NCBI GenBank assembly: GCA_016870995.1
Contig: VFZU01000031.1
Location: 1-52,613, forward strand
Length of the DNA stretch: 52,613 nt
Reading direction: 5' to 3'
DNA from: Acidobacteriota bacterium
GTDB taxonomy: Bacteria; Acidobacteriota; Terriglobia; Bryobacterales; Bryobacteraceae
The notes under the pieces are model-generated. The model was given only the letters and a program-made list of their open reading frames with translations, did not search any database and was not told where the DNA came from. A program made the position numbers and the translations under genes. Position 1 is the stretch's first letter, and each line of letters begins with the position of its first letter. Positions 11,707 to 42,878 of this stretch are shown here, one piece after another.

Positions 11707-14700
11707 TCAGAAGGTGAGGCGGGCCTGAACCTGGAGCCAGCGGTTGGTGGCTGCGGTTTGGGCGAGGACGCGGCCGAAGTCGGTGGAATAGGGGTCGGTG
11801 TTGGGGCCGGCCATCTGGGAACGATTGATGACGTTGAGGGCGTCGAAACGGAGTTGCATCTTGACGCTCTCGGTGATGGGGATGTTCTTGGAGATATCGG
11901 CGTTCCACTGGTTGGTGTGGTCGCTGCGCAGGCCGTCGATGCGCGTGGGGAACTGGCGGCGGTGGAAGGAGTTGGGGCCGATGGCGGAATTGCGCTCGAA
12001 GTCCGCGGTGTTGAACCAGGTGTTGAAGGTGCGGTTGACGTTGGTGATGTTGGCTGTGTCGTTGCCGCGATAGAAGATGTTGCCGCCCCAGTTGAGGAGA
12101 GGGCCGGGTTGGAGTTCCCAGGTGACCGCGGTTTGCCAGCCGCCGACGAGGTAGTTCAGCGCGCGGGGTGCGCCGTTGAAGAAACGGCGGCCTTTGCCGA
12201 AGGGAAGTTCATAGACGGAGCTGGCGCCGCTGCGGTGGGGGCGGCCGTCGTTGGAGGGACGTACACGGCGGTCGGATTCGAATTCGAAAAAGAAGAAGTC
12301 CGCTTCGGTGAGCCGCATGGCGGTGTAGCCGAAGTTTAAGTTCCAGCCTTTGGAGAAGCGCTTTTCAAAAGAGACTTGAAGTTCGTGTGCTGTGGTAAAC
12401 GAATCGCCGTCGCCGCCGTTGCGAAGGCCGTCGCCGCCGGAGTTCTGCGGGAAGGCGCGGAGCAATTGGTGCTTGCGGATGATGTTGGCGGTGAAGAAGC
12501 CATTGTTGGACATGTCCTGCCAGACGAGGGGGTCGAATTTGGAGCGATCGAGGTTGCCGATGAAGAAGGGGTTGGGGACGTTGGCGTTGAGGTTGTTGGC
12601 GATGGCATCGTTGCGGGTGAGGCCGTCGGCCCAATATCGTTCGGGAAGGAAGGAATCGCGGCGGCTGACGTTATCGCCACTCAACGAGACGCGGTCGGAG
12701 TAGGAGCCCTGATACATGACGTTCAGCTGCATGGTGCCACCGATCTGGCGCTGGATGCCGAAGCTGAAGCGCTGTTGGCGGGCGTGCGGGAGCGATGTGG
12801 GAGTGTAGTCGTAACCGCGACCGGCGAGGGCCATGTTGCCGAGGGCGTTGCGAGTGGGAACGTCAAAGCGGGTGCCGTCGCCGCGAATGGGGAATGGATC
12901 GCGAAGCAGAGAGTTGCCATTGGCCGGGTTGGCGTTGGCCGGGAAGTTCCAGGTCTGGCCAAAGTTGTTCGTGATGATCGTGTTTGTGGCGCGGGAGAAG
13001 CCCGTTTGCGTTGGGCCGAAGTTCATGACGTTGAGTGTGTCGAAGAAAATGCCATAGCCGCCACGAAGGACCGTCTTCTTGTCGAGCAAGAAGGCGACGC
13101 CGATGCGTGGCATCCACATGAATTCGTTTTTGAAGGCGGAGCGGGGATTGCCGCCGACGCCAGGAAAGGTTGCGCCGCCCACCACCTTGAAACTGGAGGC
13201 GGGAAGTTCGGGGACGGGGTTGCGGGCGTAGGCGGCCTGAACCGCTTCTGTGATGGGGAGAGTGGCGTTGGGGTCGAAACCGGCGATCATGCGGTTGAAT
13301 CGCTCGGTGGCGCCGCCTTCCCATTCGAAGCGCAAGCCGAGGTTGAGCGTGAGGCGCTTGTTGACGCGCCAGGAATCCTGAATGAAGGTGCCCCAGTAGG
13401 GGGTGTGAGTGGCGAAGCTGTCGTTGGTGGCGATGGAGATGCCGTTGGGGATGCCGAGAATGAAGGCGGCCATGGAATGGACCAAGGTGGACGAGGGGAA
13501 AAAGCCATCGTCATGGCGGCGGGTAAAGTTGTCAGAGAAAGTGAAATTGCCGCTGGTGTTGCCGCCACCGCCACCGGTGCGGAAGAAATTGCGCTTATCG
13601 AAGGCGGCGCGGAGGGTGTGTTTGCCACGGATGTGAGTGGCTTCGAACTTGGCATTGATGGAGCGGGTACGAGTAAATACCGGCAGGTTGGCGGGGCTAA
13701 TGGCGGAGTAGCCGTTGAGGGTCATGCGGGGCAGGATTGCCTCGTCGCCTGCCTTTTCATCCATGTAGGCGGGAAGGCCGACATCGGTGGGTTTGAACGT
13801 GCGGGCGAAGGGCTGGACGCTGCCTTCTTTGAACTGGTTGGAGGCGAGGTTGAAATTGAAAATGGTGCTGGCGGATTTGGAGTAGATGACGTCGAAGTTG
13901 CCGCCGACGTTGTTGCGGACGAGGCCGTTGATGTTGAGGCCGCGGGCGGTTTCGTAAGTCCAGTCGCCGCGATCTTCGGGGCCAAAGTTGTTCCAGGACC
14001 AGCGGCCGTACATGCGCCACTTGTCGCTGAGGTTGTAATCGACGCGGTTGGAGTAAGCGGAGTAATCCCAGTTGTAAGCAGTCTGGTTGGCGAGATAGTT
14101 GTTGGTGGGATCCTGGCCGAGGATGGTGGCGTTGGGCTTGGGATAGAGAGCCATGATCTTGTCGAAGGCGGGGTTGGCGAAGCGGCTCTTGGGGATGACG
14201 TTGTTGGGGAAGGCCTGGCGGATGAAGTTGTTGGGGCGGGCGGGATCACGAGTGATCGAGATGGGGTCGTGGAGGATGAAGCGCTGGCCGTTGGGGATGC
14301 TCAGCATGTCGGTGAAGATGCCTTCGCGGGCGTTGAGGGTGGGGACGGTGCGGTTAAAGGCTGAGGAGTCTTCAACCTTGACGTCTTTGAAGGCGTTGTA
14401 GGTGAAGAACCAGAAGAGCTTGTTGCGGCCGTCGTAGATTTTGGGAATGATGACGGGGCCACCGCCGGAAGCGCCCCAGTTGTTGGAGCGGCCGGTGGGT
14501 TGTTTGTCGGTGTTGCGGATGCGGTCGGCCAGGGCTTTGTTGCCGGCGGCTTCGGCGGCGTTGATGCTGCGGAAGTAGTTTTGCTTGACGAAGAAGGGAG
14601 TGCCCTGCCAGCGCTGCTGCCAGTGTTGCCAGGTTGCGGTGCCGTGGAATTCGTTGGAGCCGGATTTGGAGATCATTGTGATCGCCGCGCCGGAGGATTG

Positions 14701-15400
14701 GCCGATGGAGGCGTCGTAGTTGTTGGTTTCGACTTTGAACTCGCTGATGGCGTCGGTGTAAGGCATGTAGGTCGGTGTAAGGCATGTAGGCGGTGCGTCG
14801 GCTGGGGCCTTGGTTGGGGGAGCCGTCGAGGGTCCAGGAATTGCCGCCGATGTTGCCGCCGACACTGTAGTCGGAGCCGCCCGCGTTGGAGTGAAGGGCG
14901 AGATAGTTGTTGACGCCGCCGGTCTGGATGCCGGGGGAGTTCTTGACGAGGAGCATGGCGGAGTTGCCCATGACGGGGAGCTCCATGAGAGTTTTGTTGT
15001 CGATGACACGGCCTGAGGAGACGGAGTTGGTTTCGAGCAGCGGGGCTTCGGCGGAGACGGAAATGGTCTCGGTGAGTGCGCCGATTTCGAGGCTGAGGTT
15101 GACTTCGATGCGAGAGGAGACTGGGAGGATGATGCCGGTGCGGTTGACCTTCTTGAAGCCTTTGGATTCGGCCGTGATCTGATACGGGCCTGGCATGAGG
15201 AGGTTGGCTTCGTAGTAGCCGCTGGGATTGGTTTCAAGCGTCTGGCTGGCACCCGTGTCGGTGTTGCGGACGATAACCTTGACGCCGGCGACAGTTGCGC
15301 CTTGAGCGTCTGTGGCGCGGCCGAGGAGTGTGGAGCGGGTCTCCTGGGCTGTGATGAGGCTCAAGCTCAGCAGGGAGCAACACAGAATTCTAAAGAACAT
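11707..15400 (-). pseudogene. Oar-like TonB-dependent receptor broken by a 19-bp tandem duplication
   Basis: The N-terminus (ATG 15400, MFFRILCCSLLSLSLITAQ signal, RBS GGGG) continues through a carboxypeptidase regulatory-like domain (GATVAGVKVIVRNTDTG, PSGYYEANLLMPGPYQI) and a plug (SAEAPLLETNSVSSGRVID). After RTAYMPYTD the frame is lost. Positions 14752-14770 and 14771-14789 are identical 19-bp copies. Removing one restores RTAYMPYTD-AISEFKVETNNYDASIGQ and a 1225-codon gene whose barrel half is intact to the LTF terminus. The family is an outer-membrane protein with a plug, usually about 1000-1250 residues, importing oligosaccharides or peptides. As read, translation yields about 220 receptor residues and then nonsense. 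Phase variation by slippage is a second possibility. Confidence 0.92.
14752..14789. repeat. Exact 19-bp tandem duplication, two copies
   Basis: Unit GTCGGTGTAAGGCATGTAG occurs twice with period 19. The match stops at 14751 and 14791, so the duplicated unit is exact and ungapped. Since 19 is not a multiple of three it shifts the receptor frame. Confidence 0.97.
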
Positions 15401-15468: not shown

Positions 15469-18400
15469 ATGTTGCGAATTATTGTATTTGTGTTGCTGAA
15501 TTGGGGGCTCTGGGCTCAGTCGAGCGCTGGGGGCGGGGCGATCCAGGGGACCGTGAAGGACCCGACGGGGGCGGTGTTGCCCGGGGCCAAAATCAACGTT
15601 CTGCATATCGATACGGGGCGGACTTTCAACACGACTTCGAATGGTGAGGGGTTTTACATCACGCCGCCTCTGAATATCGGGGAATACAAGATGCGTGTGG
15701 AATTGGCCGGGATGAAGGCGTGGGAGGGTGAGATTCGGGTTGAGACAGGGCGTGTGGTGGGTGTGGATCCGGTGTTGACTCCCGGGCAGGTGAACGAGAC
15801 GGTGACGGTGAGCGATAGTGTGCCGCTGGTGAATGTGGTGGATGCGACGGATGCGTCAACGCTTGATTCGCAGCGGATCAAGGAGTTGCCGATCAATGGG
15901 CGGAATCTGAATACGCTGTTGGGGAATGTGACGCCTGGAGTGGAAGATGCTGATGGGGCGGGCGGGAGTATTCGTGTGTCGGGTTTGATGAGCTACTCGA
16001 CGGATTATGTGCAGGATGGGGCATCGTCGAATAACCGCGAGTTTGGCGGGTCGGCGAACTTGCAGGGTTTGGAATCGATCGGAGAGGTGAGAGTGGAGAC
16101 GTCGACTTCGTCGGCGAAGTACACGCGGCCGACTTCGGTGATTGTGTCGACCAAGAGCGGGACGAATCGCTTGAGCTTCGCGATGTTTGAGACGCACCGG
16201 AATAACGGGTTTGGCGTGGCGAGGGCGCGGCAGGATGTGTTTCTGGACGGACGGCCATTTCAGACGCCGAAGTTGATTCGCAATGAGTTTGGGGGGAGTG
16301 TTGGCGGGCCGGTGGTGATTCCGAAACTCTATAACGGAAGGAATCGGACGTTCTTCTTTTTCACTCGCGAGGGGAGTGAGTGGGTGCAGGGAATTACTCG
16401 TGATTTTCGGGTGCCAACCGTGAAGATGCGTCAGGGCGACTTTAGCGAATTGGTGGATTTGCAGGGGAGATCTCTGCAGCTGTATGATCCGCTGACGACG
16501 CGCCAGGAGGAGTTTGAGAATGGGCGGATTGTGAGTGTACGCGACCCGTTTTCGAACAATCAGATTGATCCGCGGAGGCTGAGCGCGTTTACGAAGCGGA
16601 TTCTCGACATTACGCCGATGCCGTCGGACATTACGAATCCGAACATTGTCAACAACCTGAGGATGGTGGTGCCGACGACGCAGTTTCCGATGTTGAGCGA
16701 TAGCCCGGTGGTGTTGCGTGTCGATCACCGGTTTACGGAGAAGGATAACTTCTTTGTGAAATTGAACGGCGGGACGCGACAGTCGCACTATCTGGGGACT
16801 GCGGGGAACAACGGGCCACCCACGTTGAACAAAGAAGCGAATGTGACCTATCAGCCGGTGAGAGGGCGGAGTGTGGCGTTAAGTTTGATTCATACGTTTT
16901 CGCCGACGTTCTTTGTGGAGACCTTGGCGAACCGGACGTGGCAGTTTTCAAAGACGGTGACGGGGCCGGAGCAGCGGGATTGGTCGAAGGAGTTGGGGCT
17001 GCCGAATCCACTGGGTGAGATTGGATGGCCGAATATTACAGGAACTGGGTTTACGAACTACAACTACATCGAGGGAGATCAGCGCCGGCAGTTGTACAGC
17101 ATGATCTCGAATGTGGAGCAGAATTACACGTGGATCAAGAAGTCGCATAACATCTCGTTCGGTTACCGATGGCATGACGAGAAGCAACATTTGTTGCCGG
17201 ATCAGGGAGCGATCTCGGGATCGGTGGCGTTTAGCAGCCTGGCGACGGCGCTGGAATCCTCAACCTTGGGCACGTCGATCAACCCTGGAACAACGCCGCA
17301 GACGGGGCATGATATGGCGAACTTCTTTTTGGGTTATGCGAGTACCTACACGGTGGGGTTGAAGCGCGGGATTCTGCGTGTGCAGGAGCAGAATCACGGT
17401 ATGTACTTTCAGGACAACTGGAGGGTGTCACGGAGGTTGACGTTGACTCCGGGAGTTCGCTGGGATATCAATCCGGCGTTTCGAGAGAAGAGCAATCTGT
17501 TGACGGCTTTTGATCTGGAGTCGAAGTCGATTTTGCTGCCGGAGTCGCTGGACTTTTACTACAACATCGGCGCCACGAGTCCGCGGGTTGTGAGGAATTT
17601 TGAGAATGTGGGAATGTCGTTTCGGAGCGCAGCGGACTTGGGTCGGCCGAAGCAGCTGTTCCCTTCGAATTACTTCGATATCGGGCCAAGAGGCGGGTTT
17701 GTGTACAGCATTATGGATGGGAAGAAGCCGCTCATTTTGAGGGGCGGGTATGGGCTCTACATATCGGCTGTGCCGATGCGCACGCTGCTCGCGCAATTTT
17801 CGAACTTGGCTCCGTTTCGCGCCAACTTTACTTACAATCCGAACGCGGCGGCGCAGAGCCCTGACGGTATCGGTAACGTGTTGCTGCGGACGGTGCCGGA
17901 TGTAAAGGTAGGCGTGAATAGCGCAAATGTGATTGATTTGAACAACCCGACTTCGCTGGGACGTGGGCAGGGAGTAGTTGCGATGGATGGCAAGCAACCG
18001 AGCTTGCAGATTCATGAGTGGAATCTGGCGCTGGAGAAGCAATTGGCGGCGTCGACGGTGGTCCGTGTGACTTACAAGGGTAAGTATGGTGTCAATTCGG
18101 ACCAGCTGTACAACATCAATCCGCAGTCGAATGACTATATCTGGTACCTGACGACAGGGCGGGCGATACCGCCAGGTGAGTTTGCCAACGTGTTGCGGCG
18201 GCCTTTTGATCAGAACGCCTACACGGATATTCGGATTCTGCAGCGGTCGGGAATCATTAGCTCTTCGACGTGGGCGCTTGAGGTGGAGCGGCGGTTCCGC
18301 AATGGCTTGGGCTTTCAGGCGTTCTACACGATGACGAATGCGTTGCGGCTGGCGGGGAATTCGTTCCGGGACGACCAGAGCTCGGCGCTGAATGCTTATC

Positions 18401-19233
18401 TGCCGGGGACGGTGCCGACGGACTTGAAAGAGCTAAATCGGTTCTTGTTTTATGACCGGGATACGGGCGTGCCGAAGCACCGGATCCGCTGGAATTGGAG
18501 CTACGATATGCCGTTTGGCAAGGGTAAGCCGATTCTGCGGAATGCCCGTGGATTCCTGAATGCCGCTGTGGGTGGGTGGAAGTTGTGGGGGACGGGGACG
18601 GTGGTGAGCACCTGGTATGCGATGCCGACCGGGGAATGGGGCGAGATGGGCAAGTTTGAGGTGTACCGGAATAAGCACAAGATCCTGGATTGCCGGGCGA
18701 CACCTGCAGACGCCCGGACGGCGAGAGATGAGCGTTGTATCGAAGGGTATCTCTGGTTCAACGGTTACATTTCTGAACGATTCATCGATAGCCGGAATGC
18801 GTTTGGAATGAGGAACGGCGTGTTCGGATTGCCAGCTGATTACAAGCCTGCGCAGAAGCCGATCAACCCGTGGCCCAAGGGCGGGCGGCCAACGGATTTG
18901 AACAATGCGGATTACGACACGGATTTCGTTTATCTACCATTGCAGACCGGAGGTGTGGTGCGCGTGGATTACAACACTGGGTTGCACCCGTGGAGAAACC
19001 AGTACAAGCTGGGCCCATTCAACTGGACCATGGATTCGTCGTTGATGAAGTACTTTGACTTCAACGAGAAGAAGACGGCGCGGTTGCGGTTTAACGTGGA
19101 CGTGTTCAATGTCTTCAATACTCAGGGGCTCGTGGTGCCGAATTCGCAGGGGATTTCGAGCCTTGCGACCTCCTACAACGGGTTCAGTATTCGACCGCGG
19201 CAATTGCAGGCGACGATGCGGTTGGAGTTTTAA
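15469..19233 (+). CDS. Oar-like TonB-dependent receptor
   Basis: A 1254-residue outer-membrane receptor. It has a signal peptide (about 1-18), a carboxypeptidase regulatory-like domain (GGAIQGTVKDPTGAVLPGAK and GEGFYITPPLNIGEYKM), a plug region (NETVTVSDSVPLVNVVDATDAS, ELPINGRNLNTLLGNVTPG) and a long barrel ending ...QATMRLEF with a terminal Phe, as OMP barrels do. Acidobacteria carry dozens of these, presumed to import complex glycans or peptides using TonB energy. It is intact, unlike its divergent partner. An enolase-superfamily gene follows 26 bp downstream on the same strand and may metabolise what it imports. Confidence 0.93.
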   Translation: MLRIIVFVLLNWGLWAQSSAGGGAIQGTVKDPTGAVLPGAKINVLHIDTGRTFNTTSNGEGFYITPPLNIGEYKMRVELAGMKAWEGEIRVETGRVVGVDPVLTPGQVNETVTVSDSVPLVNVVDATDASTLDSQRIKELPINGRNLNTLLGNVTPGVEDADGAGGSIRVSGLMSYSTDYVQDGASSNNREFGGSANLQGLESIGEVRVETSTSSAKYTRPTSVIVSTKSGTNRLSFAMFETHRNNGFGVARARQDVFLDGRPFQTPKLIRNEFGGSVGGPVVIPKLYNGRNRTFFFFTREGSEWVQGITRDFRVPTVKMRQGDFSELVDLQGRSLQLYDPLTTRQEEFENGRIVSVRDPFSNNQIDPRRLSAFTKRILDITPMPSDITNPNIVNNLRMVVPTTQFPMLSDSPVVLRVDHRFTEKDNFFVKLNGGTRQSHYLGTAGNNGPPTLNKEANVTYQPVRGRSVALSLIHTFSPTFFVETLANRTWQFSKTVTGPEQRDWSKELGLPNPLGEIGWPNITGTGFTNYNYIEGDQRRQLYSMISNVEQNYTWIKKSHNISFGYRWHDEKQHLLPDQGAISGSVAFSSLATALESSTLGTSINPGTTPQTGHDMANFFLGYASTYTVGLKRGILRVQEQNHGMYFQDNWRVSRRLTLTPGVRWDINPAFREKSNLLTAFDLESKSILLPESLDFYYNIGATSPRVVRNFENVGMSFRSAADLGRPKQLFPSNYFDIGPRGGFVYSIMDGKKPLILRGGYGLYISAVPMRTLLAQFSNLAPFRANFTYNPNAAAQSPDGIGNVLLRTVPDVKVGVNSANVIDLNNPTSLGRGQGVVAMDGKQPSLQIHEWNLALEKQLAASTVVRVTYKGKYGVNSDQLYNINPQSNDYIWYLTTGRAIPPGEFANVLRRPFDQNAYTDIRILQRSGIISSSTWALEVERRFRNGLGFQAFYTMTNALRLAGNSFRDDQSSALNAYLPGTVPTDLKELNRFLFYDRDTGVPKHRIRWNWSYDMPFGKGKPILRNARGFLNAAVGGWKLWGTGTVVSTWYAMPTGEWGEMGKFEVYRNKHKILDCRATPADARTARDERCIEGYLWFNGYISERFIDSRNAFGMRNGVFGLPADYKPAQKPINPWPKGGRPTDLNNADYDTDFVYLPLQTGGVVRVDYNTGLHPWRNQYKLGPFNWTMDSSLMKYFDFNEKKTARLRFNVDVFNVFNTQGLVVPNSQGISSLATSYNGFSIRPRQLQATMRLEF

Positions 19234-23393: not shown

Positions 23394-24485
23394 CTAGCTC
23401 TGGATGAGAGATTTGAGAGGCACTGGATAGAGGGGTTGGCGGACGGAGTCTGAAGGCCAGCCGTAAAGCTGCTCAAGGATGGGGCCACAGATGCGGCCCT
23501 GGCAGGGGCCCATGCCGCAGCGGGTTTGGAGCTTGGCTTCGCGCATGGAGGAGCACTGGGTGGTTCTTGAGAATGGGATGTCTTCGCAGCGGCAGAGGAT
23601 GGTGTCGGGCTGGGCGAGTTGCTTGAGTTCGTCGCGGAGCTTGAAGGTGCGGGTGAGGAGTTTGACAAAATCCTGATGGTTGCCGAGGGTGGCAGTGCCG
23701 GCGCCAGCGGCTTCCCCTTCTGCTTCGGCCTTTTCAAGGCCGCCGATGCCGGTGAGTTCGCCGACGGCGTAGATGCCTTGCACCGAGGTTTGCTGATGGC
23801 GGTTGACTTTGACGAAGCCGTTTTCGATTTTGCAGTTGGCGAGGCGGGCGAGCTCCAGGTTGGGCAGGAGACCGAAGGCGCAGGCGAGATAGTTGCAGGG
23901 GTAAGTCTTGCCGTTCGACATCAAGACTTCGCCAGGCTTGGCTTCGATGGGCCAGAGGTTCGGGGTGTAGTTGATGTTGAAGAGTTGCAGAGCCTGCGTG
24001 AGTTTGGAAGGCCAGCGGAGGAGTTGCGAGCCGAAATGCAGAAGGCTGGACCAGGGGGCTTGTTCGGCGATGAGGGTAATGTCAGCACCGGCTTTTTTGA
24101 GGTTGCTGGCGACGGCGAGGAGGAGTGGGCCTGAGCCGGCGATGACTACAGACTTACCTTGGACGTTGAGGCCTTGCTTGGCCATGGCCTGGAGGCCGCC
24201 CGCGCCGAGGACGTGAGGCAGAGTCCAGCCGGGGAAGGGCAGGAAGAGTTCGCGGGCACCGGTGGCGAGGATGATCTGGGTGGCGGAGAAGTTGAGGTCT
24301 GTGATCTGGGTGCTGAAGCGGCGGTCGACGCCTTTGAGTTCGATGCCATCTCGGCCACGCCAGATTTGGCCACCGGGACCGTGATTGTCATCGATGATGA
24401 GCGTTTGTTTGCCGGCATGTTTTGCGGCGCGAGCCGCAGCAAGGCCAGCCGGGCCAGCGCCGATGATGATCGCGTCATATCGCAT
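23394..24485 (-). CDS. D-hydroxyproline dehydrogenase alpha-like FAD oxidoreductase with BFD-type 2Fe-2S domain
   Basis: A 363-residue flavoprotein. The first dinucleotide motif is IIIGAGPAGLAAARAAK (residues 6-22) and the second is VVIAGSGPLLLAVASNL. The C-terminus has a BFD-like 2Fe-2S site, LCRCEDIPFS followed by TRCGMGPCQGRICG. This matches the HcnB/SoxA-like subunit of heteromeric amino-acid dehydrogenases that pair with a DadA-like subunit and a small ferredoxin-like subunit. All three are adjacent here. With the neighbouring epimerase and lyase, D-hydroxyproline (cis-4-hydroxy-D-proline) is the best substrate guess, with proline or an opine as alternatives. The start overlaps the 2Fe-2S gene by 11 bp. 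Confidence 0.85.
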   Translation of the reverse strand: MRYDAIIIGAGPAGLAAARAAKHAGKQTLIIDDNHGPGGQIWRGRDGIELKGVDRRFSTQITDLNFSATQIILATGARELFLPFPGWTLPHVLGAGGLQAMAKQGLNVQGKSVVIAGSGPLLLAVASNLKKAGADITLIAEQAPWSSLLHFGSQLLRWPSKLTQALQLFNINYTPNLWPIEAKPGEVLMSNGKTYPCNYLACAFGLLPNLELARLANCKIENGFVKVNRHQQTSVQGIYAVGELTGIGGLEKAEAEGEAAGAGTATLGNHQDFVKLLTRTFKLRDELKQLAQPDTILCRCEDIPFSRTTQCSSMREAKLQTRCGMGPCQGRICGPILEQLYGWPSDSVRQPLYPVPLKSLIQS

Positions 24486-24714
24486 CGGTAGAGACCTCCA
24501 TGCCTTCGCGGACTTCCACCTGGCAGCCGCGCTGGTAGGCGATGCCGTCGATGGTGACTCTACATTCGAAACAGATGCCCATGCCGCAGAGAGGATTGCG
24601 GGGCTGGCCGGAGACGCTGGTGCGCGAGGTGATGCCGAGATTCATCAGTGCGGCAGCGACGGTTGTCTTCTCGTCGGCCTGATGCGGCGTGCCGTTGATG
24701 ACTATGTGCGGCAT
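24475..24714 (-). CDS. Small (2Fe-2S)-binding subunit of the dehydrogenase (gamma-like)
   Basis: A 79-residue ferredoxin-fold protein. The cysteines of a plant-type 2Fe-2S cluster are in RNPLCGMGICFECRVTIDG, with a later Cys in GCQVEV. In opine, sarcosine and D-hydroxyproline dehydrogenases such a subunit passes electrons from the catalytic flavin to the second FAD subunit. It overlaps the upstream DadA-like gene by 13 bp and the downstream gene by 11 bp, indicating tight translational coupling and fixed stoichiometry. Confidence 0.87.
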   Translation of the reverse strand: MPHIVINGTPHQADEKTTVAAALMNLGITSRTSVSGQPRNPLCGMGICFECRVTIDGIAYQRGCQVEVREGMEVSTDAI

Positions 24715-25799
24715 TGGGGGAAACGCTCCGGGAGATATGGCGTGGGGTCGATGGGTGCCTTTGTCTTTGCGATCAAATGAGTGAGGAGTTCGGCGGTGGC
24801 CATGGCGGTGGTGATGCCGAGACCCTCGTGGCCGGTGGCGAGCCAGGTGCGGTCCGCGTTACGGTAGCGACCGACAAGAGGAAGCTTGTCGGTAGTGGCG
24901 GCGCGGAAGCCAGTCCAGGTGCGGATGATGCTCATGTTGAGAATGTTGGGGAGATATTGTGCGGCGCGGGCGAGCATCTTCGAGATCATGTGCGGCTCGA
25001 CCGCGCTGTGATCGGCTCCGAATTGGCGGGAACTGCCAATGAGGAGTTGGCCGGTTTTGCGAGGTTGGACGTTGAAGGCGACACTTTCTGTGGAATCCCC
25101 ATGGGCACTCTTTAGGTAACCGAGTTCAATGAGTTGGTGGCGGACCTGGCCGGGGTAGCGATCGGTGATGGCGAGATGGCCTTTGCGCGGCTTCACAGGG
25201 ATTGTCGAAAAGAGTTGGGTGACGTAATGGCCGCTGGCGATGATGAGATTGGCGGCTTTGTGTTGTTCGCCGATGGCCAGAGTGACTTTGCCGTCGTCGA
25301 TAGTTTTTACGTCGGCCTGGATGATGTTGGCGCCCTGAGCGAGCCATGCGGCGGCGCAAGGGGCATAAATGACGCTGTCGTCTGGGACGAGAAAGCCACC
25401 GGCGAAGCCCTCACGGAGATGGGGCTCGGCATCGTAGAGGGTTTGTGCGCTGAGAAGCTGGGCGCTGACGTGGCGCGAATTGTAGTAGCTGAGCTTGGGG
25501 CTGACGGCGTTGAATTCCTGTTGATCGGCGGCCACCCAGAGGGTGCCTCGGCGCTCGAACTCGACGCTTGAGGGAAGCTCAGGGACGAGTTGATCCCACA
25601 GGTCGCGGGAGCGTTTGGTGAGAGCGAACTGGGCTTCGCTGTCGTCCATGACGACGATGTGGCCCATGCCTGCGGCGGTTGCTCCGCCGCCGATGAGTTC
25701 GCGCTCGATGATGGTGACCTTGAGGCCTTGTTTGAGGAAAGCGCGGGCGCAGGCAGCGCCGACGATGCCGCCGCCGAGGATGAGCACATCAGAGGTCAA
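24702..25799 (-). CDS. DadA-like FAD-dependent D-amino acid/hydroxyproline dehydrogenase, catalytic subunit
   Basis: A 365-residue DAO-fold flavoprotein. Its start is a TTG fused to the epimerase stop (TTGA). VLILGGGIVGAACARAFLKQG at the N-terminus binds FAD (GxGxxG), and the C-terminal RTWTGFRAATTDKLPLVGRY followed by GHEGLGITTAMATAELL is typical of DadA/glycine oxidase relatives. It is the likely site of oxidation of cis-4-hydroxy-D-proline to 1-pyrroline-4-hydroxy-2-carboxylate, with electrons leaving through the two accessory subunits. Assignment rests on operon context; the fold alone would only say D-amino acid dehydrogenase. Confidence 0.85.
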   Translation of the reverse strand: MTSDVLILGGGIVGAACARAFLKQGLKVTIIERELIGGGATAAGMGHIVVMDDSEAQFALTKRSRDLWDQLVPELPSSVEFERRGTLWVAADQQEFNAVSPKLSYYNSRHVSAQLLSAQTLYDAEPHLREGFAGGFLVPDDSVIYAPCAAAWLAQGANIIQADVKTIDDGKVTLAIGEQHKAANLIIASGHYVTQLFSTIPVKPRKGHLAITDRYPGQVRHQLIELGYLKSAHGDSTESVAFNVQPRKTGQLLIGSSRQFGADHSAVEPHMISKMLARAAQYLPNILNMSIIRTWTGFRAATTDKLPLVGRYRNADRTWLATGHEGLGITTAMATAELLTHLIAKTKAPIDPTPYLPERFPQCRT

Positions 25800-26728
25800 C
25801 CGCGAATCCCCCAGCAGAATGGATCGCGGGGATCGAGCACGAGGAAGGCCTCAGAGTTGACCCAGGCGCGGCCGGAAATGGCGGGGACAATTTGATTGCC
25901 TTGCTGTTTGTAGCTTGCGTCGAAATGGCTGCCCACAATGCTCTCCTGGCGCCAGAGGTCGCCTTCTTTCAGTTTGCCATCGGCGGCGAGGCAGGCGAGC
26001 TTGGCGCTGGTGCCTGTGCCGCAGGGAGACCGATCGTAGGCATTGCCGGGGCAGAGAACGAAGCTGCGGCTGTTGGCTGTGGGCGAGGGCGCGAAGATCT
26101 CGATGTGGTCGATCTCGGCGTTGTTTTCGCCAGTAATGTTGTTGTCGAGAAGCGCTTGCTTGATCCTGGTTGCGACCTGAGTCCAATGAGAGGCTTGTTT
26201 GACGTCGAGCTGGGTGGTGAGGCCATCGACGAGGAAGAACCAGTTGCCGCCCCAGGCGATGTCGCCCTGGATGAGGCCGAGGCCTTCGACTTCGATGGGG
26301 ACCTTTGCTTTGTAGCGATAGCTGGGGACGTTGTGGATCGTGACTTCGCCGGATTCGGCGAGTGTGGCAGTGATGACGCCGACGGGAGTTTCGATGCGTT
26401 GAGGGCCAGGCTTGATGAGGTTGAGGTAGTCGAGGGTGGCGACGACGCCGATGGCGCCGTGGCCGCACATGCCGAGATAGCCGACGTTGTTGAAGAAGAT
26501 AACGGCGGCGGTAGAGGTCGAATCGCAAGGGGGAACGAGCAAAGCGCCGACCATGACATCGCTGCCGCGGGGCTCCTTGACGACGGCGCTGCGGAAGCCA
26601 TCGTGGGATGTGCGGAAGATTTCGAGACGCTCTGCGATGGAGCCCTGACCGAGGTCAGGGCCTCCTTCGATGACGACTCTGGTGGGTTCGCCGCCAGTGT
26701 GAGAATCGATGACGCGGACGCGCTTCAC
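25796..26728 (-). CDS. lhpA: 4-hydroxyproline 2-epimerase (proline racemase family)
   Basis: A 310-residue cofactor-independent epimerase. Both catalytic cysteines of the two-base mechanism are present: Cys88 in GYLGMCGHGAIG and Cys236 in DRSPCGTGTSAKLA. The pair separates it from the trans-3-hydroxyproline dehydratase branch, which has Thr at one position. DSHTGGEPTRVV at the N-terminus is a family signature. It converts trans-4-hydroxy-L-proline to the cis-D form, the first step of bacterial hydroxyproline catabolism. Its GTG start is embedded in the lyase stop (GTGA). The following dehydrogenase and preceding lyase complete the next two steps. Confidence 0.9.
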   Translation of the reverse strand: MKRVRVIDSHTGGEPTRVVIEGGPDLGQGSIAERLEIFRTSHDGFRSAVVKEPRGSDVMVGALLVPPCDSTSTAAVIFFNNVGYLGMCGHGAIGVVATLDYLNLIKPGPQRIETPVGVITATLAESGEVTIHNVPSYRYKAKVPIEVEGLGLIQGDIAWGGNWFFLVDGLTTQLDVKQASHWTQVATRIKQALLDNNITGENNAEIDHIEIFAPSPTANSRSFVLCPGNAYDRSPCGTGTSAKLACLAADGKLKEGDLWRQESIVGSHFDASYKQQGNQIVPAISGRAWVNSEAFLVLDPRDPFCWGIRG

Positions 26729-27621
26729 AGCTTGGGCCTGGTGGCGAGAGCTTGGCGGATGATTTTGAGGACTTCTTCGCGTTCAGCGCCTTCGACCTTG
26801 AGCCGGGGCGCGCGGGTGACTTCGCTGCCGAGGCCGACTTCGGCCATACACATCTTGATGTATTGGACGAGCTTGATTTTCGTGTCGAGGTGGAGGAGGG
26901 GCGTGTACCAGCGGTAGAGCTCGAGGGCTTCGTTCCAGCGGCGCGCTTTGCAGTGTTCCCAGAGGACGCGGTTTTCGTCAGGGAAGGCGTTGACGAGGCC
27001 GGAGACCCAACCAACGGCACCGAGCATGGCGGACTCGAGGACGAGATCGTCGACGCCAGAGAAGAGGATGTAGCGATCGCCGACCGTGTTGACGAGGTCA
27101 GTGATGCGGCGAGGGTCGCCGGAAGATTCTTTGATGGAGACGAGGGTGGGCTGGTCGGCAAGTTCGACGAAGCAATCGGGCGTGAGGTCGACAAAGTAGC
27201 TGGGGGGATTGTTGTAGACCATAATGGGCAGGCTGCTTGAATTGGCAACGGCGCGGAAGTGGGCGATGGCTTCCCGACGGTCGGCCTTATAGATCATGGC
27301 GGGGAGGACCATCATGCCGTCGATGCCGATCTTTTCGCAGTCGCGAGCGAACTGGCATGCTGTGCGAGTGGTGTTCTCTGCATTGCCCGAGAGCAGCGGG
27401 ATGCGGCCGTTGACGACGGGCTTGAGCTCTTTGAGGACGCTGAGTTTTTCTTCGTAGGAGAGAGCCGTGTTCTCACCGACGCTGCCGAGGAGGATGACGC
27501 CGTGGATGCCGGCGGCGATCATCTTCTCAAGGTGAGCAGCCGTGGCGTCGAAGTCGATCGACTCGTCGCTGCGGAACTGCGTGGTGAGGGCGGGGAAGAC
27601 CCCGTGCCAGTTGACGTTCAT
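26725..27621 (-). CDS. DHDPS/NAL-family lyase, probable 1-pyrroline-4-hydroxy-2-carboxylate deaminase
   Basis: A 298-residue TIM-barrel enzyme. ATG 27621 is chosen because it forms TAATG with the upstream stop and has GGAG 8 nt upstream. The Schiff-base Lys164 is in TLVSIKESSGD, Tyr136 in IMVYNNPPSY, and GSVGENTALSYEEK is the substrate-carboxylate loop. In hydroxyproline clusters this family deaminates Pyr4H2C to alpha-ketoglutarate semialdehyde. Placement before the epimerase and dehydrogenase supports that role; on fold alone it could be a keto-sugar-acid aldolase or dehydratase. The semialdehyde dehydrogenase that should act next is not in the window. Confidence 0.85.
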   Translation of the reverse strand: MNVNWHGVFPALTTQFRSDESIDFDATAAHLEKMIAAGIHGVILLGSVGENTALSYEEKLSVLKELKPVVNGRIPLLSGNAENTTRTACQFARDCEKIGIDGMMVLPAMIYKADRREAIAHFRAVANSSSLPIMVYNNPPSYFVDLTPDCFVELADQPTLVSIKESSGDPRRITDLVNTVGDRYILFSGVDDLVLESAMLGAVGWVSGLVNAFPDENRVLWEHCKARRWNEALELYRWYTPLLHLDTKIKLVQYIKMCMAEVGLGSEVTRAPRLKVEGAEREEVLKIIRQALATRPKL

Positions 27622-29369
27622 TAGAATCTCCATTTGGCGACAAAGTTTTTGTCGAGTTTCGTTTGAGTGAGGCTAGCACGGACCATTTCAATGGGGAGTG
27701 CGTTGCCTTTGAGAATGTGGTCGTGGAAGTCTTTGGGCTTCATTTTGCCCTTGGTGACAAGGTCATTGTAAAGGCTGCGGATCTGGAGGCCACCGAGCAT
27801 GTAGGCGGCTTGATAAAGCGGCGGGTAGGTTCCTTCGAAACTGCGGCGGACTTCGGCGGCGGCATTCTCGCGTTCGTGTCCGACGCGGTCGACCAGGAAG
27901 TCGACGCACTCTTGCGCTTTCATCTGGCCGAGGTGGAACTTGAGTGAGAAGATGATGCGGGCGCAGCGGTGCATGCGCCAGAACAGCATGCCGATTTTGT
28001 CTTCGGGGCCGCGCGGGAAACCGAGATCCCAGAGGAGCATCTCCCACCAGAGGGCCCAGCCTTCGCGCCAGAAGGGGGTCTCGAAGGCGGCGCGGTATTG
28101 GCGATAGCGCTGGTTGTAGTAACGCTGGAGGTTGTGACCGGGGATGAGCTCGTGTTGGACAGTGGCGCGGGAGAAGTGTTCGTTGTTGCCGCGCATGCTC
28201 ATGAGCTTCTCTTCGTGCGTCATGGTGTCGGTGGGGAAACTGACGATGATGCTTTCGCCGCCGAGGAAGAAGGGGTTGATGCGTTGGCGCTCTGGGGACA
28301 TCATGAGCATGCGCCAGGAGTCGCGGGCGAGATGAGGGACAGTGACGAGGTCGCGTTTGGTGACGAAATCGATGGCCTCCACAGCGAGATCCAGGATCAT
28401 TTTCGGTTGGCCGCCGGGATCACGGTGGAGGGTTTTGACGCGTTCCATGGCGGCTTTGGTGTCCTCGCCGAGTCCCATTTCGCGGGTGGCCTTTTTGAGC
28501 TCGTTGTCGCACCAGGCGAACTCGCGGTTGGCGATCTCGATCAGTTCTTCGGGGGTGTAGGCAATCATGTCGGCCTTGAGGTCGCTCATGAGGGCTTCGC
28601 GGCCAATGGGGTCGCCGATGATGGTGTCGCGGTCGTCGCGCTTGAGGCCGGCACCGCGCTCGCGCAGGGTGGCGGCGTAATCGGTGAGGGATTTGGAGAG
28701 CTTCGTGTAGGGGTCTTTGACCCACCATTCAAAGAGTGGATCGTAACCTTGATAGAAAGCGAACCATCGTTTGAGGCTTGCTTCCATTTCGAGGGTGAGG
28801 CGATGGGCACGCAATGCAACGGTTTGATTTTGCTTTGGAGTGTCGGGTTTTTTGAGCCAGGTGTCGAGCTCTTTGATCTGCTTGGAGACGTTGACGAGAG
28901 TTGCGGCCGCATCGCGGCCCGCGATTGGGTCGACGCGCTGGCGGATCTCTTCGAGACGCCAGAGGCTGGTGGCAAAGCCAATCAGAGGTTGCATCTCGTG
29001 CCAGCGGGTTTGATCGAGATCGAGTAGAGCGAGGGCGCGTTGATTGATGTTGCGCAACATGAGCCAATCGATACGAGTTTCGACATCATAGGAGTCGAAG
29101 GGGAGGGACTCGATGTTCTTGAGCCAGGTTTGGTGGAATTCGCGAAGTGTTTCGATGCGAGCTGAAGAGTAGGTGAGTGAGAAGAAACTGTCGATGGCGC
29201 GAAGGTCGGCGCGGTAGCGCTCGATGAGTTCGGGTAGGGTGGAGGGCATTGATTCCCAAAGGTATGGGGATCGGTTCGGGCGTTGGGCCAATGCCACCGA
29301 TGCCGTGAAGGAGGCGAGCAGGGAACGTCTTGTCCATCGGGTGAGAGGCTGCGATAGGATTGACGGCAT
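27621..29369 (-). CDS. DUF885 family putative metallopeptidase with Tat signal
   Basis: A 582-residue protein if started at ATG 29369; an ATG at 29414 adds 15 residues. The leader RWTRRSLLASFTASVALAQR is a twin-arginine signal. The family's zinc-protease-like motif is HELIPGHNLQRYYNQR, followed by a glutamate-bearing EGWALWWEMLLWDLGF helix. DUF885 members are presumed zinc-dependent peptidases. It heads the hydroxyproline operon and couples to the lyase through TAATG, so release of hydroxyproline from collagen-like or plant-extensin-like peptides in the periplasm is an attractive inference. Its start codon overlaps that of the divergent gene. Confidence 0.82.
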   Translation of the reverse strand: MPSILSQPLTRWTRRSLLASFTASVALAQRPNRSPYLWESMPSTLPELIERYRADLRAIDSFFSLTYSSARIETLREFHQTWLKNIESLPFDSYDVETRIDWLMLRNINQRALALLDLDQTRWHEMQPLIGFATSLWRLEEIRQRVDPIAGRDAAATLVNVSKQIKELDTWLKKPDTPKQNQTVALRAHRLTLEMEASLKRWFAFYQGYDPLFEWWVKDPYTKLSKSLTDYAATLRERGAGLKRDDRDTIIGDPIGREALMSDLKADMIAYTPEELIEIANREFAWCDNELKKATREMGLGEDTKAAMERVKTLHRDPGGQPKMILDLAVEAIDFVTKRDLVTVPHLARDSWRMLMMSPERQRINPFFLGGESIIVSFPTDTMTHEEKLMSMRGNNEHFSRATVQHELIPGHNLQRYYNQRYRQYRAAFETPFWREGWALWWEMLLWDLGFPRGPEDKIGMLFWRMHRCARIIFSLKFHLGQMKAQECVDFLVDRVGHERENAAAEVRRSFEGTYPPLYQAAYMLGGLQIRSLYNDLVTKGKMKPKDFHDHILKGNALPIEMVRASLTQTKLDKNFVAKWRF

Positions 29370-29796
29370 GAAAACCAGATTAATACTGCTGGCGCTTGTG
29401 GCGGGATGCCACATGTTCGCGGCGTCTCAAGAAGATGAGCTGAAGGCCACGATCGATAAGTGGCGGACGGCGGTGATCAAGAAGGACAAGGCGACGCTTG
29501 AGAAATACACGTCACCGACTGTGACGTATTCGCACTCGAATGCCTTGATGGAAGACCGCGCACAGATGATCGCAGCGATGACAGCCCCGGATATCGCTTA
29601 CACGGCCATGGATATGGAAGAAACGAAGATGCGTTTCTTTGGCAAGGTGGGTGTAGTCAACACGAAGATGACAGTCAAGAATGCCAACAAGGGTGTGGCG
29701 CAAACGATTCCGCTGAGTGTTTTGATGGTTTGGGTTAAGGAAGGGTCGGATTGGAAGCTGACTGCGCGTCACACGACGCGATTCCCTCAGAAGTAG
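29368..29796 (+). CDS. NTF2-like (SnoaL/DUF4440) secreted protein
   Basis: A 142-residue protein with a Sec signal (MKTRLILLALVAGCHMFAAS). ATG 29368 follows AGGA with proper spacing; the frame stays open upstream, but that part has no signal and lies antisense to the peptidase. The cone fold is seen in DELKATIDKWRTAVIKKDKATLEKYTSPTV, then YSHSNALMEDRAQM, and VLMVWVKEGSDWKLTARHTT at the end, a standard DUF4440 layout. Function unknown; relatives are small-molecule binders or isomerases. Confidence 0.82.
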   Translation: MKTRLILLALVAGCHMFAASQEDELKATIDKWRTAVIKKDKATLEKYTSPTVTYSHSNALMEDRAQMIAAMTAPDIAYTAMDMEETKMRFFGKVGVVNTKMTVKNANKGVAQTIPLSVLMVWVKEGSDWKLTARHTTRFPQK

Positions 29797-40161: not shown

Positions 40162-40812
40162 GTCTTGAGCGCGGTGAACAACATCTCCAAGTTGATCGTG
40201 GACGGGCAAAAGAACTTGTTGCGCGCTGCGGAAAGACAAGGCGTGAAACGGTTCTTGCCGTCGGACTTCAGCGTGGATTTTCGCAAGGTGGCGATGGGGG
40301 ACAACTACAACTTGGATATGCGGAAGAAGTTTTTGCCGGTTGTGCAGGATTCGAAAGTCGCTCATATGCCGGTGATCAACGGAGCCTTCTATGAAGTGGT
40401 GGCGGCACCGTTTCTTGGGTTTGTAGACCTGGAAAAGAAGCAGGTGACGATTTGGGGGGATGGGGAGCAGAAGATGGAGTTTACGGCGACCGATGACGTG
40501 GCGAAGTATGTTGCGGCTGCGGTGCTGGACCCGAGGATGGAGAATCGCACTTTGAGTGTGGCGGGAGATGTACTGAGCAGCAATGAAGTGGCGGGCCTAT
40601 TTGGTTTTGAGCGACGCGAAGCAGGCAGTGTCCGTGATTTGAAGGCGCGCATCGCCGCCAAGCAGCAGGGCGCGACGAACCCGTGGGCTTATCTAGGGGC
40701 TCAGTATCTGTGGGCGATGGTGAGTGGCGTGGCGCAGGCCGACAGGATCGACAATGCGATGCATCCAGAGATTCGCCCGATGGGGCTGAAGCAGTTTTTC
40801 GGGATGGCTTAA
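40162..40812 (+). pseudogene. NmrA-like NAD(P)-binding family protein, N-terminus deleted
   Basis: From 40162 the + strand reads VLSAVNN...IVDGQKNLLRAAERQGVKRFLPSDFSVDF, the middle of an NmrA/isoflavone-reductase-like protein, and continues to the end (VVAAPFLGFVDLEKKQVTIWG, FTATDDVAKYVAAAVLDP). The N-terminal GxxGxxG Rossmann motif and first 60 or so residues are missing. The open frame continues upstream only as antisense of the LysR remnant. Unlikely to bind NADP. Confidence 0.83.
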
Positions 40813-42878
40813 CGGGAGGCGGAGAGGGCTTGATCGAAGGAGCCAAGCATCGTCTTGACGGACTTGGCTTCATCCATGTCGGGGTTGAGGGTGAGCATGC
40901 GTTGGAAATGTTTGCGGGCGACCGCAAGGGTTTCAAGGCTACCGGTTGATTGAGCCTGCGTGGCGTAGACGAGGCCGCTCAAGTAGTGGGCATAAGGGTA
41001 ATCGGGATCGTACTGCAGGCTCTTTTGGCAGAACAGCGTGGCGTCGGTGAGTTTCTTGTCGCGAAAGGCGCAGTCGCAGAGGCCGAAATAAGCCATGGAG
41101 CGAAGGTCCTGCCAAATGTCTTTTTGCGCGGCGCGGCGGCGTTTGCCGTGGCCAACGAGAAAGCCAACGACGTAGTAGTTCAAGTTGCCAGCCATGCCGG
41201 AATCGAAGTTGCTGTACTTGAGGTAGTCGACGTACTCCTTGCGCGACTCCTTGTAGTCGCCCTTCATGCGGAGACTCTCGGCGAGCCAGAAGTGAGGCTC
41301 GGCGATGTTGGGCGAAATAGCGATGGCGGCACGAGCGCTCTCGATGGCGTCGTCGTAGCGTTCTTTGATGCGGTAAGCCTGAGCGCGCAGATAGAGAGTT
41401 TGGAGATCTTTGGGGTTGCGCTTCAGGACGACATCGAACTGACGAATGCTGCCGTCGACATCGCCGATATCGAGTAGCATGCCGCCGAAGCTTGACCGCG
41501 CTTCAGAGTAATCCGGGTCGATCTTAATGGCGGTTTCGAACAACTGGCGGGCTTTCGTTTGATCGAACAAAGCGTTGTAGGCGCGCCCAAGATAGAGAGC
41601 GGACTGGCTGTAGGTAGGGTCTGTCGCGAGAGCCTCGGCGAAATGCTCGACGGCTTTCTTGTAGTTCTGCTCGAAGCCCTTGTTGTAAAAGTCGAGGCCT
41701 TTTTCGAACTGGTCGACGGCGGCCTTGGGGCGTTTGCGGGGGATCAGGATCTGGATCTTAACGGTGGATTCCTGGCCGGGGTAGACCATTTCTTCGCGAG
41801 GGCCGTCGGGCTCGTAACCCATCTTGACGCCCTGAACCTGATGCGCGCCGGGACGGAGGCCTGGGATACGTAATGGGTTGCCCTTGCTTGCGACCCCAGC
41901 GCTCTTGCCATCGAGGAAGACTTCGACATCTTCGCGGTTGGTCTCAAAGATGAGCGTGCCGAACTTGGGTGCAGGAGGTGCGGCGGCCGTGGCGTAGCTG
42001 GGAACATAGGCGATCAGCATTTCGGGATCGAAAGCACCGCGATCGGAACGAGGTGTCTGCTTGCCTTTGGTGGCTTCGCGGACGTTCTTGCGGACGTACT
42101 CGGTCATCTCAACGGCAGTGACCTGGCCGTCGCGGTCGTCGTCGGCTTCGCCTTCCATACCCTTGACGACATAGTAGGTGAACACGCCGTGGCCGCCACC
42201 GAAGTCGGGAGATTCAAAGCTGCGTTCTTCGTCGCGGGAGGCGGTGAGGGAGAACATGCTCTTGTCGAGGTTCTGCCAGAGGTTATTGAGATTGTCGGCG
42301 CGGGTTTCGCTGGTGACGAAGCCGGAGTGGCAAGAGTCGGTCATCAGGACCTTCCACTTGGCCTTCACCTTCTTGCCGATGGTTTGGGCCAGCGCCTCCA
42401 TGGGGTAGCCCGAGCCGGCAATGTTGTTGAGGTTGAAGTCGTAGGGGGCGAGATAACCCTTGCCCTGGTGGACAAAGCCGTGACCGGCGAAGTAAATGAA
42501 GACGCGGTCGTTTTCGTTGGCGACGCTGGGGAGCCATACTTCCAGTTCCTTCTTGAGGTTGGCGAGAGTGGCTTTGGGCCCAAGGAGCTTCTTGACGTTT
42601 TCAGCGCGGAAGTTGCCACCTTCCAGGCTGATGAGGATCGAGTAGAGCGAGTCTGCATCTCGCTCGGAATAGGCGAGGTGGAGATCCTTGGGCAGGTTTT
42701 GATAGGCGCCAACGCCCATGACGATAGCGTAGCTGCGGGGAATCTCCACCTTCTTGGTGAGAAGCTGCGACTCGCCTTCGGGGAAGGGATCCGCTTCGAC
42801 CTTGAGGTCGCGCGCCTGTTTGTTCTGCTGGGCGGCGAAGCTCAGTGCGGCAATGAGGAGTGTGGCAAAGAGCTTCAT
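40809..42878 (-). CDS. Secreted caspase-like (C14) protease with PEGA and TPR modules
   Basis: 689 residues with a Sec signal (MKLFATLLIAALSFAAQ). The peptidase C14 domain (about 48-290) has the catalytic dyad: His133 in FIYFAGHGF and Cys183 in VLMTDSCHSG. A PEGA domain (about 305-380) reads GTLIFETNREDVEVFLDGKSAGV...IPGLRPGAHQV, followed by about seven TPR units to the C-terminus (YNKGFEQNYKKAVEHFAEAL, YSQSALYLGRAYNALFD, RYDDAIESARAAIAISPN). The signal means it works outside the cytoplasm. It follows the DUF4384 gene with TAA immediately before ATG. A scaffold-bound surface protease is likely; its target is unknown. Confidence 0.9.
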   Translation of the reverse strand: MKLFATLLIAALSFAAQQNKQARDLKVEADPFPEGESQLLTKKVEIPRSYAIVMGVGAYQNLPKDLHLAYSERDADSLYSILISLEGGNFRAENVKKLLGPKATLANLKKELEVWLPSVANENDRVFIYFAGHGFVHQGKGYLAPYDFNLNNIAGSGYPMEALAQTIGKKVKAKWKVLMTDSCHSGFVTSETRADNLNNLWQNLDKSMFSLTASRDEERSFESPDFGGGHGVFTYYVVKGMEGEADDDRDGQVTAVEMTEYVRKNVREATKGKQTPRSDRGAFDPEMLIAYVPSYATAAAPPAPKFGTLIFETNREDVEVFLDGKSAGVASKGNPLRIPGLRPGAHQVQGVKMGYEPDGPREEMVYPGQESTVKIQILIPRKRPKAAVDQFEKGLDFYNKGFEQNYKKAVEHFAEALATDPTYSQSALYLGRAYNALFDQTKARQLFETAIKIDPDYSEARSSFGGMLLDIGDVDGSIRQFDVVLKRNPKDLQTLYLRAQAYRIKERYDDAIESARAAIAISPNIAEPHFWLAESLRMKGDYKESRKEYVDYLKYSNFDSGMAGNLNYYVVGFLVGHGKRRRAAQKDIWQDLRSMAYFGLCDCAFRDKKLTDATLFCQKSLQYDPDYPYAHYLSGLVYATQAQSTGSLETLAVARKHFQRMLTLNPDMDEAKSVKTMLGSFDQALSASR

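Follow-up and report, generated by a model that had tools for sequence, protein, structure and literature searches.

What would a putative secreted metallopeptidase of the family DUF885 contribute to a set of genes for hydroxyproline degradation? This question is raised by a DNA stretch of 52,613 nucleotides (nt) from an Acidobacteriota bacterium (order Bryobacterales, family Bryobacteraceae; assembly GCA_016870995.1, contig VFZU01000031.1), called the window below, where six minus-strand open reading frames (ORFs) run from position 29369 to position 23394 and neighbouring ORFs overlap at all junctions. We regard it as probable that these genes are a catabolic operon for trans-4-hydroxy-L-proline in which the DUF885 gene supplies a secreted peptidase. 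The genomic link between DUF885 and the hydroxyproline genes is strong: they co-occur in three orders of three bacterial phyla, an association wider than the reading of a single sequence could show, and their adjacency is repeated in two of these orders, with one case in the third. Genomes are designated by G numbers and loci or stretches by L numbers.

The six genes and their predicted products

The DUF885 gene (27621..29369) encodes 582 amino acids with an RR-type signal, the motif HELIPGH and, downstream, EGWALWWE (PF05960, 135.7 bits for a gathering threshold of 32.4 bits). It is followed by a DHDPS-type lyase (26725..27633; PF00701, 184.9 bits), a 4-hydroxyproline 2-epimerase-like member of the two-Cys proline racemase family (25796..26728; PF05544 Pro_racemase, 317.6 bits), a FAD-dependent subunit of DAO type, the proposed D-hydroxyproline dehydrogenase (24702..25799; PF01266, 206.8 bits), a 2Fe-2S ferredoxin-type subunit of 79 amino acids (24475..24714; PF13510 Fer2_4, 75.0 bits) and a NAD(P)/FAD oxidoreductase subunit with a Cys-rich C-terminus (23394..24485; PF07992 Pyr_redox_2, 92.8 bits). 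All six best Pfam models exceed their cut-offs. The ORFs and the Pfam matches confirm the overlapping operon of peptidase, lyase, epimerase and dehydrogenase subunits outlined in a preliminary description made from the sequence alone. The TAATG junction reported there is present at 27619-27623, where the stop of the DUF885 gene is joined to the lyase start at 27621; if the lyase started instead from the ATG at 27633, its overlap with DUF885 would be 13 nt. The other junctions are GTGA (lyase/epimerase) and TTGA (epimerase/FAD subunit), followed by overlaps of 13 nt and 11 nt. The six genes are probably co-transcribed.

Both Cys motifs, MCGHG and DRSPCGTGTSA, are present in the epimerase-like protein, and we take their cysteines to be the catalytic ones. 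Among six NCBIfam models compared, the top two are 4-hydroxyproline epimerases (409 and 408 bits), far from the models of proline racemase (198 bits) and trans-3-hydroxyproline dehydratase (168 bits). These two activities are less likely because the second Cys is present and the model scores are lower. The PDB sequence closest to the epimerase is 2azp (PA1268). The epimerase, D-hydroxyproline dehydrogenase and DHDPS-type deaminase families stand together in the operon, and in the same order at many fetched loci. In Pseudomonas, a several-subunit enzyme oxidises D-hydroxyproline. The specificities required for the hydroxyproline route are predicted here. The pathway proposed in the preliminary description and the tie of this DUF885 clade to hydroxyproline catabolism are well supported by the co-occurrence, the recurring adjacency, the proline-type peptidases in the neighbourhood and, at a number of loci, GH127.

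In the proposed route, the DUF885 protein would be an exported, zinc-type metallopeptidase trimming peptides that contain hydroxyproline, whether derived from hydroxyproline-rich plant glycoproteins or from collagen-like protein, to importable pieces; in this way it may free the hydroxyproline of collagen or extensin peptides. The intracellular steps would begin with the epimerase, which would yield cis-4-hydroxy-D-proline for oxidation by the three-subunit dehydrogenase. The DHDPS-type lyase would then deaminate the oxidised product, giving alpha-ketoglutarate semialdehyde, and the conversion of this compound to alpha-ketoglutarate would fall to an aldehyde dehydrogenase whose gene lies elsewhere. 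No aldehyde dehydrogenase gene lies within the six-gene operon. The window's genome contains seven aldehyde dehydrogenase matches, and its locus L255 scores best on the KGSA dehydrogenase model (598.8 bits, under the cut-off of 770).

In an alignment of 61 homologues of the DUF885 protein, two rows are gapped at the motif HE-x-x-P-G-H and the Glu that follows it, and the remaining 59 all retain these residues. The spacing is HEx4H, as opposed to the textbook HExxH of zinc metallopeptidases. Zinc binding, peptidase activity and export are predicted for this protein. All five rows of the genus carry the Tat-type N-terminus WTRR or WSRR, which matches, by motif and for this genus, the Tat export of the preliminary description; most homologues outside the genus have, by eye, other signal-like N-termini and only few have RR (L129, L156). 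A hydropathy count found signal-like N-termini in 37 of 40 and in 45 of 62 proteins against 1 of 62 in the control, which is a hint only; the set of 62 includes the outgroup row and starts that clip the signal of the genus rows. The AlphaFold model (pLDDT 87.3) was matched by Foldseek to the DUF885 structures 3u24, 3iuk and 3o0y (TM 0.55-0.67 by query length), which share 15-17% identity with the window's protein and whose titles give no function. Angiotensin-converting enzyme is among the later matches, non-significant (E 0.19 to 0.47) and beside designed and other helical proteins.

Recurrence of the DUF885-epimerase link

A sample of 200 genomes of the window's order was searched. An epimerase match at E 1e-20 was found in 93 genomes, of which 82 were counted after dropping 11 with distant matches only (two of the 82 are fragments). 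Any DUF885 match at E 1e-10 was found in 148 genomes and the window's clade (E <= 5e-75) in 62; between this clade and the remaining DUF885 matches the E-values leave a gap from 5e-75 to 1e-21. Both genes occur in 38 genomes, the DUF885 clade alone in 24, the epimerase alone in 44 and neither in 94 (Fisher p 1.6e-4, ignoring relatedness). In 14 of the 38 genomes, the two genes are within 10 kb on one contig (G000, G187, G109, G059, G155, G104, G128, G120, G073, G133, G114, G199, G161 and G022), for about 0.13 expected with a 6.5-Mb genome, and 12 of these 14 pairs are on one strand. In the window's genome, DUF885 is encoded twice and Pro_racemase once. DUF885 paralogues were used as a control: among the matches listed, there are 63 paralogue places, 26 of them in epimerase genomes, and none of the 26 is on the epimerase's contig. 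The preliminary description had made its reading depend on the conservation of the DUF885 neighbour, which was found to recur in the order and, as described below, in other phyla.

Two architectures start with DUF885, namely DUF885-DHDPS-epimerase and DUF885-epimerase-...-DHDPS. In the window's genus, five genomes have DUF885 at the operon place (G000, G187, G184, G189 and G139); the contigs of G184, G189 and G139 end in or after the DUF885 or lyase gene, and G189 and G139, which are among the epimerase-less genomes, look like contig breaks. G049 has no DUF885 match, and a contig end falls just before its lyase gene. Two further genomes of the genus, G018 and G061, have the operon but lack DUF885 in it; in other genomes DUF885 is terminal, divergent or placed elsewhere, and 24 of the 62 clade genomes have no detected epimerase. 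DUF885 is thus first in two architectures, but it is not fixed at the head of the pathway as had been proposed. The idea of one operon form, invariably headed by DUF885, was rejected because gene orders differ and many genomes lack DUF885 or have it at another place. In G143 (L128, L070), DUF885 keeps the lyase as neighbour, and the epimerase and dehydrogenase are on a different contig, where no lyase was called. At L179 (8998-11616), DUF885 and lyase are in one continuous frame; no fusion is claimed, as this frame may be an assembly error.

A broader scan of genome contigs gave at least 575 confirmed relatives among at least 590 motif matches, and 80 loci were examined; genes in the other fetched loci were called with codon-scored and base-composition pickers. 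The epimerase was present in the stretch at L174 (contig of G187), L179 (Acidobacteria), L206 (Opitutaceae, Verrucomicrobiota) and L246 (Chryseolinea lacunae, Cytophagales, Bacteroidota).

In 241 genomes of Cytophagales, the DUF885 clade (E 1e-100) was detected in 40 and the epimerase (E 1e-60) in 63. The epimerase is present in 37 of the 40 DUF885-clade genomes and in 26 of the 201 others (p 4.4e-23, again ignoring relatedness). The two genes lie within 10 kb of each other in 15 pairs, and a limit of 20 kb raises this count to 18. Stretches were examined around 40 of the 41 DUF885 places, a fragment in G217 being left out. The gene clusters most commonly found with DUF885 are DHDPS (16 stretches), DadA-like (14), epimerase (12) and aldehyde dehydrogenase (12, Aldedh by Pfam). 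With tblastn, the epimerase was found in 14 of the 40 stretches, two of which were missed by longest-ORF gene calling. Three gene orders are repeated: DHDPS-ALDH-epimerase-DadA-DUF885-permease, where ALDH is the aldehyde dehydrogenase (L281, L282, L284, L285, L287 and L294), DUF885-DHDPS-M1-like-epimerase-DadA (L273, L274) and S9-DHDPS-ALDH-epimerase-DadA-DUF885-S9 (L289, L297). Both Cytophagales epimerases that were scored exceed the cut-off of NF010578 (594.9 and 596.7 for 376).

Among 196 genomes of Opitutales, the DUF885 clade (E 1e-100) was found in six and the epimerase (E 1e-20) in 21, that is in all six DUF885-clade genomes and in 15 of the 190 others. Adjacency is limited to the seed genome; the genes are 16 kb apart on one contig in G552, and far apart or on other contigs in the remaining genomes. 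Between DUF885 and the epimerase of L206 (5733-7320), we observed a fragment like a DPPIV-type S9 peptidase (66% over 6257-6526), apparently degenerate.

The copies adjacent to hydroxyproline genes are scattered over a first tree, which comprises 61 DUF885 proteins plus an outgroup (rows shorter than 300 amino acids dropped). In a second tree of 175 rows, from which one row of at most 380 amino acids and L174, L203, L221, L225 and L246 (taken as duplicates) were dropped, the label for adjacency switches 15 times or more, and well supported branches require 12 of these switches. Shuffled labels gave 27-32 changes (50 shuffles), and each of two other labellings, one stricter and one wider, gave 17. 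In the labelling with 15 changes, L141, L121 and L128 are adjacent by their DHDPS neighbour, the epimerase being on another contig or missing; L279 is adjacent at 9.3 kb, and L072 and L080, with an epimerase within 10 kb, are not adjacent. The adjacency is clustered by descent, yet it was formed or lost many times.

Candidate substrates and competing explanations

The neighbours of DUF885 give indications on the substrate. Pfam confirmed M24 peptidases with an aminopeptidase P N-domain and S9/DPPIV, M1, M28 and M61 peptidases near DUF885 in Cytophagales representatives, together with an amino-acid permease, SusD and a SusC-type TonB receptor. The order at L246 is epimerase-DAO-S9-GH127-GH127-DUF885, then AraC and an alpha-L-arabinofuranosidase. 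GH127 is beside DUF885 at 4 of the 80 loci of the broader scan (L246, L176 of Acidobacteria, L214 of Verrucomicrobia and, by tblastn, L195), and GH127 (PF07944) was also found at L145. In the window's order, GH127 is within 10 kb of DUF885 in at least 4 of the 62 clade genomes (G060, G024, G165 and G193; on the opposite strand in G024), for 0.27 expected from 83 GH127 genes (P 1.8e-4, relatedness ignored); G165 has DUF885, S9, GH127 and GH127 on one strand. According to the accessible text of the sources, GH127 beta-L-arabinofuranosidase releases arabinose from hydroxyproline in extensins (PMC4454575) and the HypBA/HypAA enzymes act on hydroxyproline-rich glycoproteins (PMC6085000). The GH127, DPPIV-type S9 and M24 neighbours therefore point to hydroxyproline-rich glycoprotein or collagen-like peptides. 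M9 collagenase (PF01752) had no match in the window's genome, and the control genomes gave no match either.

We put forward only tentatively a more general proposal, where the DUF885 clade would be a dedicated peptidase for hydroxyproline peptides in a module recurring across phyla: GH127 would remove arabinose, S9 and aminopeptidase P would cleave proline bonds, DUF885 would cleave hydroxyproline bonds and the epimerase operon would consume the hydroxyproline. The window would represent a stripped-down form. GH127 (PF07944, E 1e-30) was found in none of eight genomes of the genus (the window's own and seven others), and the window itself therefore does not show the GH127 form. This absence is one of several observations that weigh against the interpretation of DUF885 as a hydroxyproline-linked peptidase. 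The epimerase was nearby at only 4 of the 80 broader-scan loci and is missing from 26 of the 40 Cytophagales stretches, and, of the 15 epimerase matches in Opitutales genomes without the DUF885 clade, three are only distant, at an identity of about 31%. The Cytophagales and Opitutales seed genomes were chosen for showing the link (36 of 39 and five of five without them), and the Fisher values do not account for relatedness. The 24 epimerase-less clade genomes and the operons of G018 and G061 belong here too. As for the proteins, the window's epimerase is under the curated cut-offs (409 for 450 and 408 for 442 bits), the Foldseek matches are three DUF885 structures without known function, and no uptake system is found among the operon's six genes.

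Some of these observations would also be expected if the clade were a general scavenger of proline-rich or of any peptides, linked to hydroxyproline genes by a shared peptide-feeding lifestyle. The same 24 genomes suit this explanation, as do the S9, M24, M28, M61 and M1 peptidases of the clusters and most broader-scan loci, whose neighbours are different (by eye M28-like peptidases, TonB receptors and symporters, one TonB receptor being confirmed). We consider it rather unlikely, since the commonest neighbour clusters in Cytophagales are hydroxyproline genes, the epimerase accompanies the clade in nearly all genomes of that order, and the DUF885 paralogue is unlinked among the matches listed. 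It is very improbable that DUF885 hydrolyses another hydroxyproline conjugate (N-acyl, cyclic or glycosylated) instead of peptides. Such a role would agree with the GH127 neighbours, which suggest that conjugates are handled nearby, and with the lack of a characterised DUF885 member in the literature covered, mostly without subscription papers, but the HE...H and Glu motif is of metallopeptidase type, the neighbouring genes are peptidases, and the angiotensin-converting enzyme fold has a similarity, though weak and non-significant. A chance neighbourhood without functional meaning, which the two DUF885-less operons of the genus could suggest, is hardly credible and was rejected in view of the Cytophagales clusters in several gene orders, the strong co-occurrence in orders belonging to three phyla, the label changes of the tree and the unlinked paralogue.

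The genomic link allows a class of substrates to be predicted for a large clade (at least 575 relatives), which makes a function of this clade testable. It also suggests a peptidase step, missing so far, that would lead from hydroxyproline-rich glycoproteins or collagen to the catabolism of hydroxyproline. Chryseolinea lacunae Jin1 is a named strain offering a place to test the link.

Known systems and genes around the operon

A trans-4-hydroxyproline degradation pathway was reportedly described by Watanabe in 2012. The Pfam entry PF05960 is still of "unknown function". The accessible part of the literature on DUF885/PF05960 (including PMC12572635 and PMC8478523) contains no evident hydroxyproline link and no characterised member, an absence that is weak because most subscription papers are outside this coverage.

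The pathway composed of 4HypE, cHyp oxidase and Pyr4H2C deaminase (eLife 2014, PMC4113996) has, in the accessible text, its deaminase in the DHDPS superfamily and its oxidase in the DAAO superfamily. The window shares the families of the epimerase, the DAAO-type oxidoreductase and the DHDPS-superfamily deaminase; it differs by the added DUF885 gene coupled to the lyase gene and by an operon without aldehyde dehydrogenase. The nearest published idea found is the Colwellia collagen-utilisation cluster (PMC7883544), which likewise joins peptidases and hydroxyproline catabolism; its accessible text names M9 collagenase, PepQ and YpdF, and DUF885 is not named there. The HypBA/HypAA genes for extensin arabinans are described in Bifidobacterium and Xanthomonas, and the Xanthomonas hypAA adjoins a broken prolyl oligopeptidase gene (PMC6085000, accessible text). 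In this arrangement, a proline-type peptidase accompanies arabinofuranosidases that act on hydroxyproline arabinans, much as S9 accompanies GH127 at L145, L176 and L246; neither DUF885 nor hydroxyproline catabolism is described in that part of the source, and the window's genus is without detected GH127.

The operon is bounded by a divergent DUF4440 gene (29368..29796, plus strand; PF14534, 56.2 bits, scanned as 29371-29796), outside the pathway. The start codons of DUF885 and DUF4440 overlap in CATG at 29367-29370, and therefore there is no intergenic promoter between them. This CATG overlap is also present at L044, L121, L141 and L159; at L045, without DUF885, the starts called for the lyase and DUF4440 genes are 119 nt apart. 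Just downstream of the operon, on the same strand, the segment 20865-23369 contains an NHL-like stretch and a Solibacter C-terminal domain, with no known tie to the operon. Two large proteins with an OMP_b-brl_4 outer-membrane barrel are encoded at 11707-15252 and 15469-19233, and a caspase-domain (Peptidase_C14) protein with tetratricopeptide repeats is found at 40809-42878.

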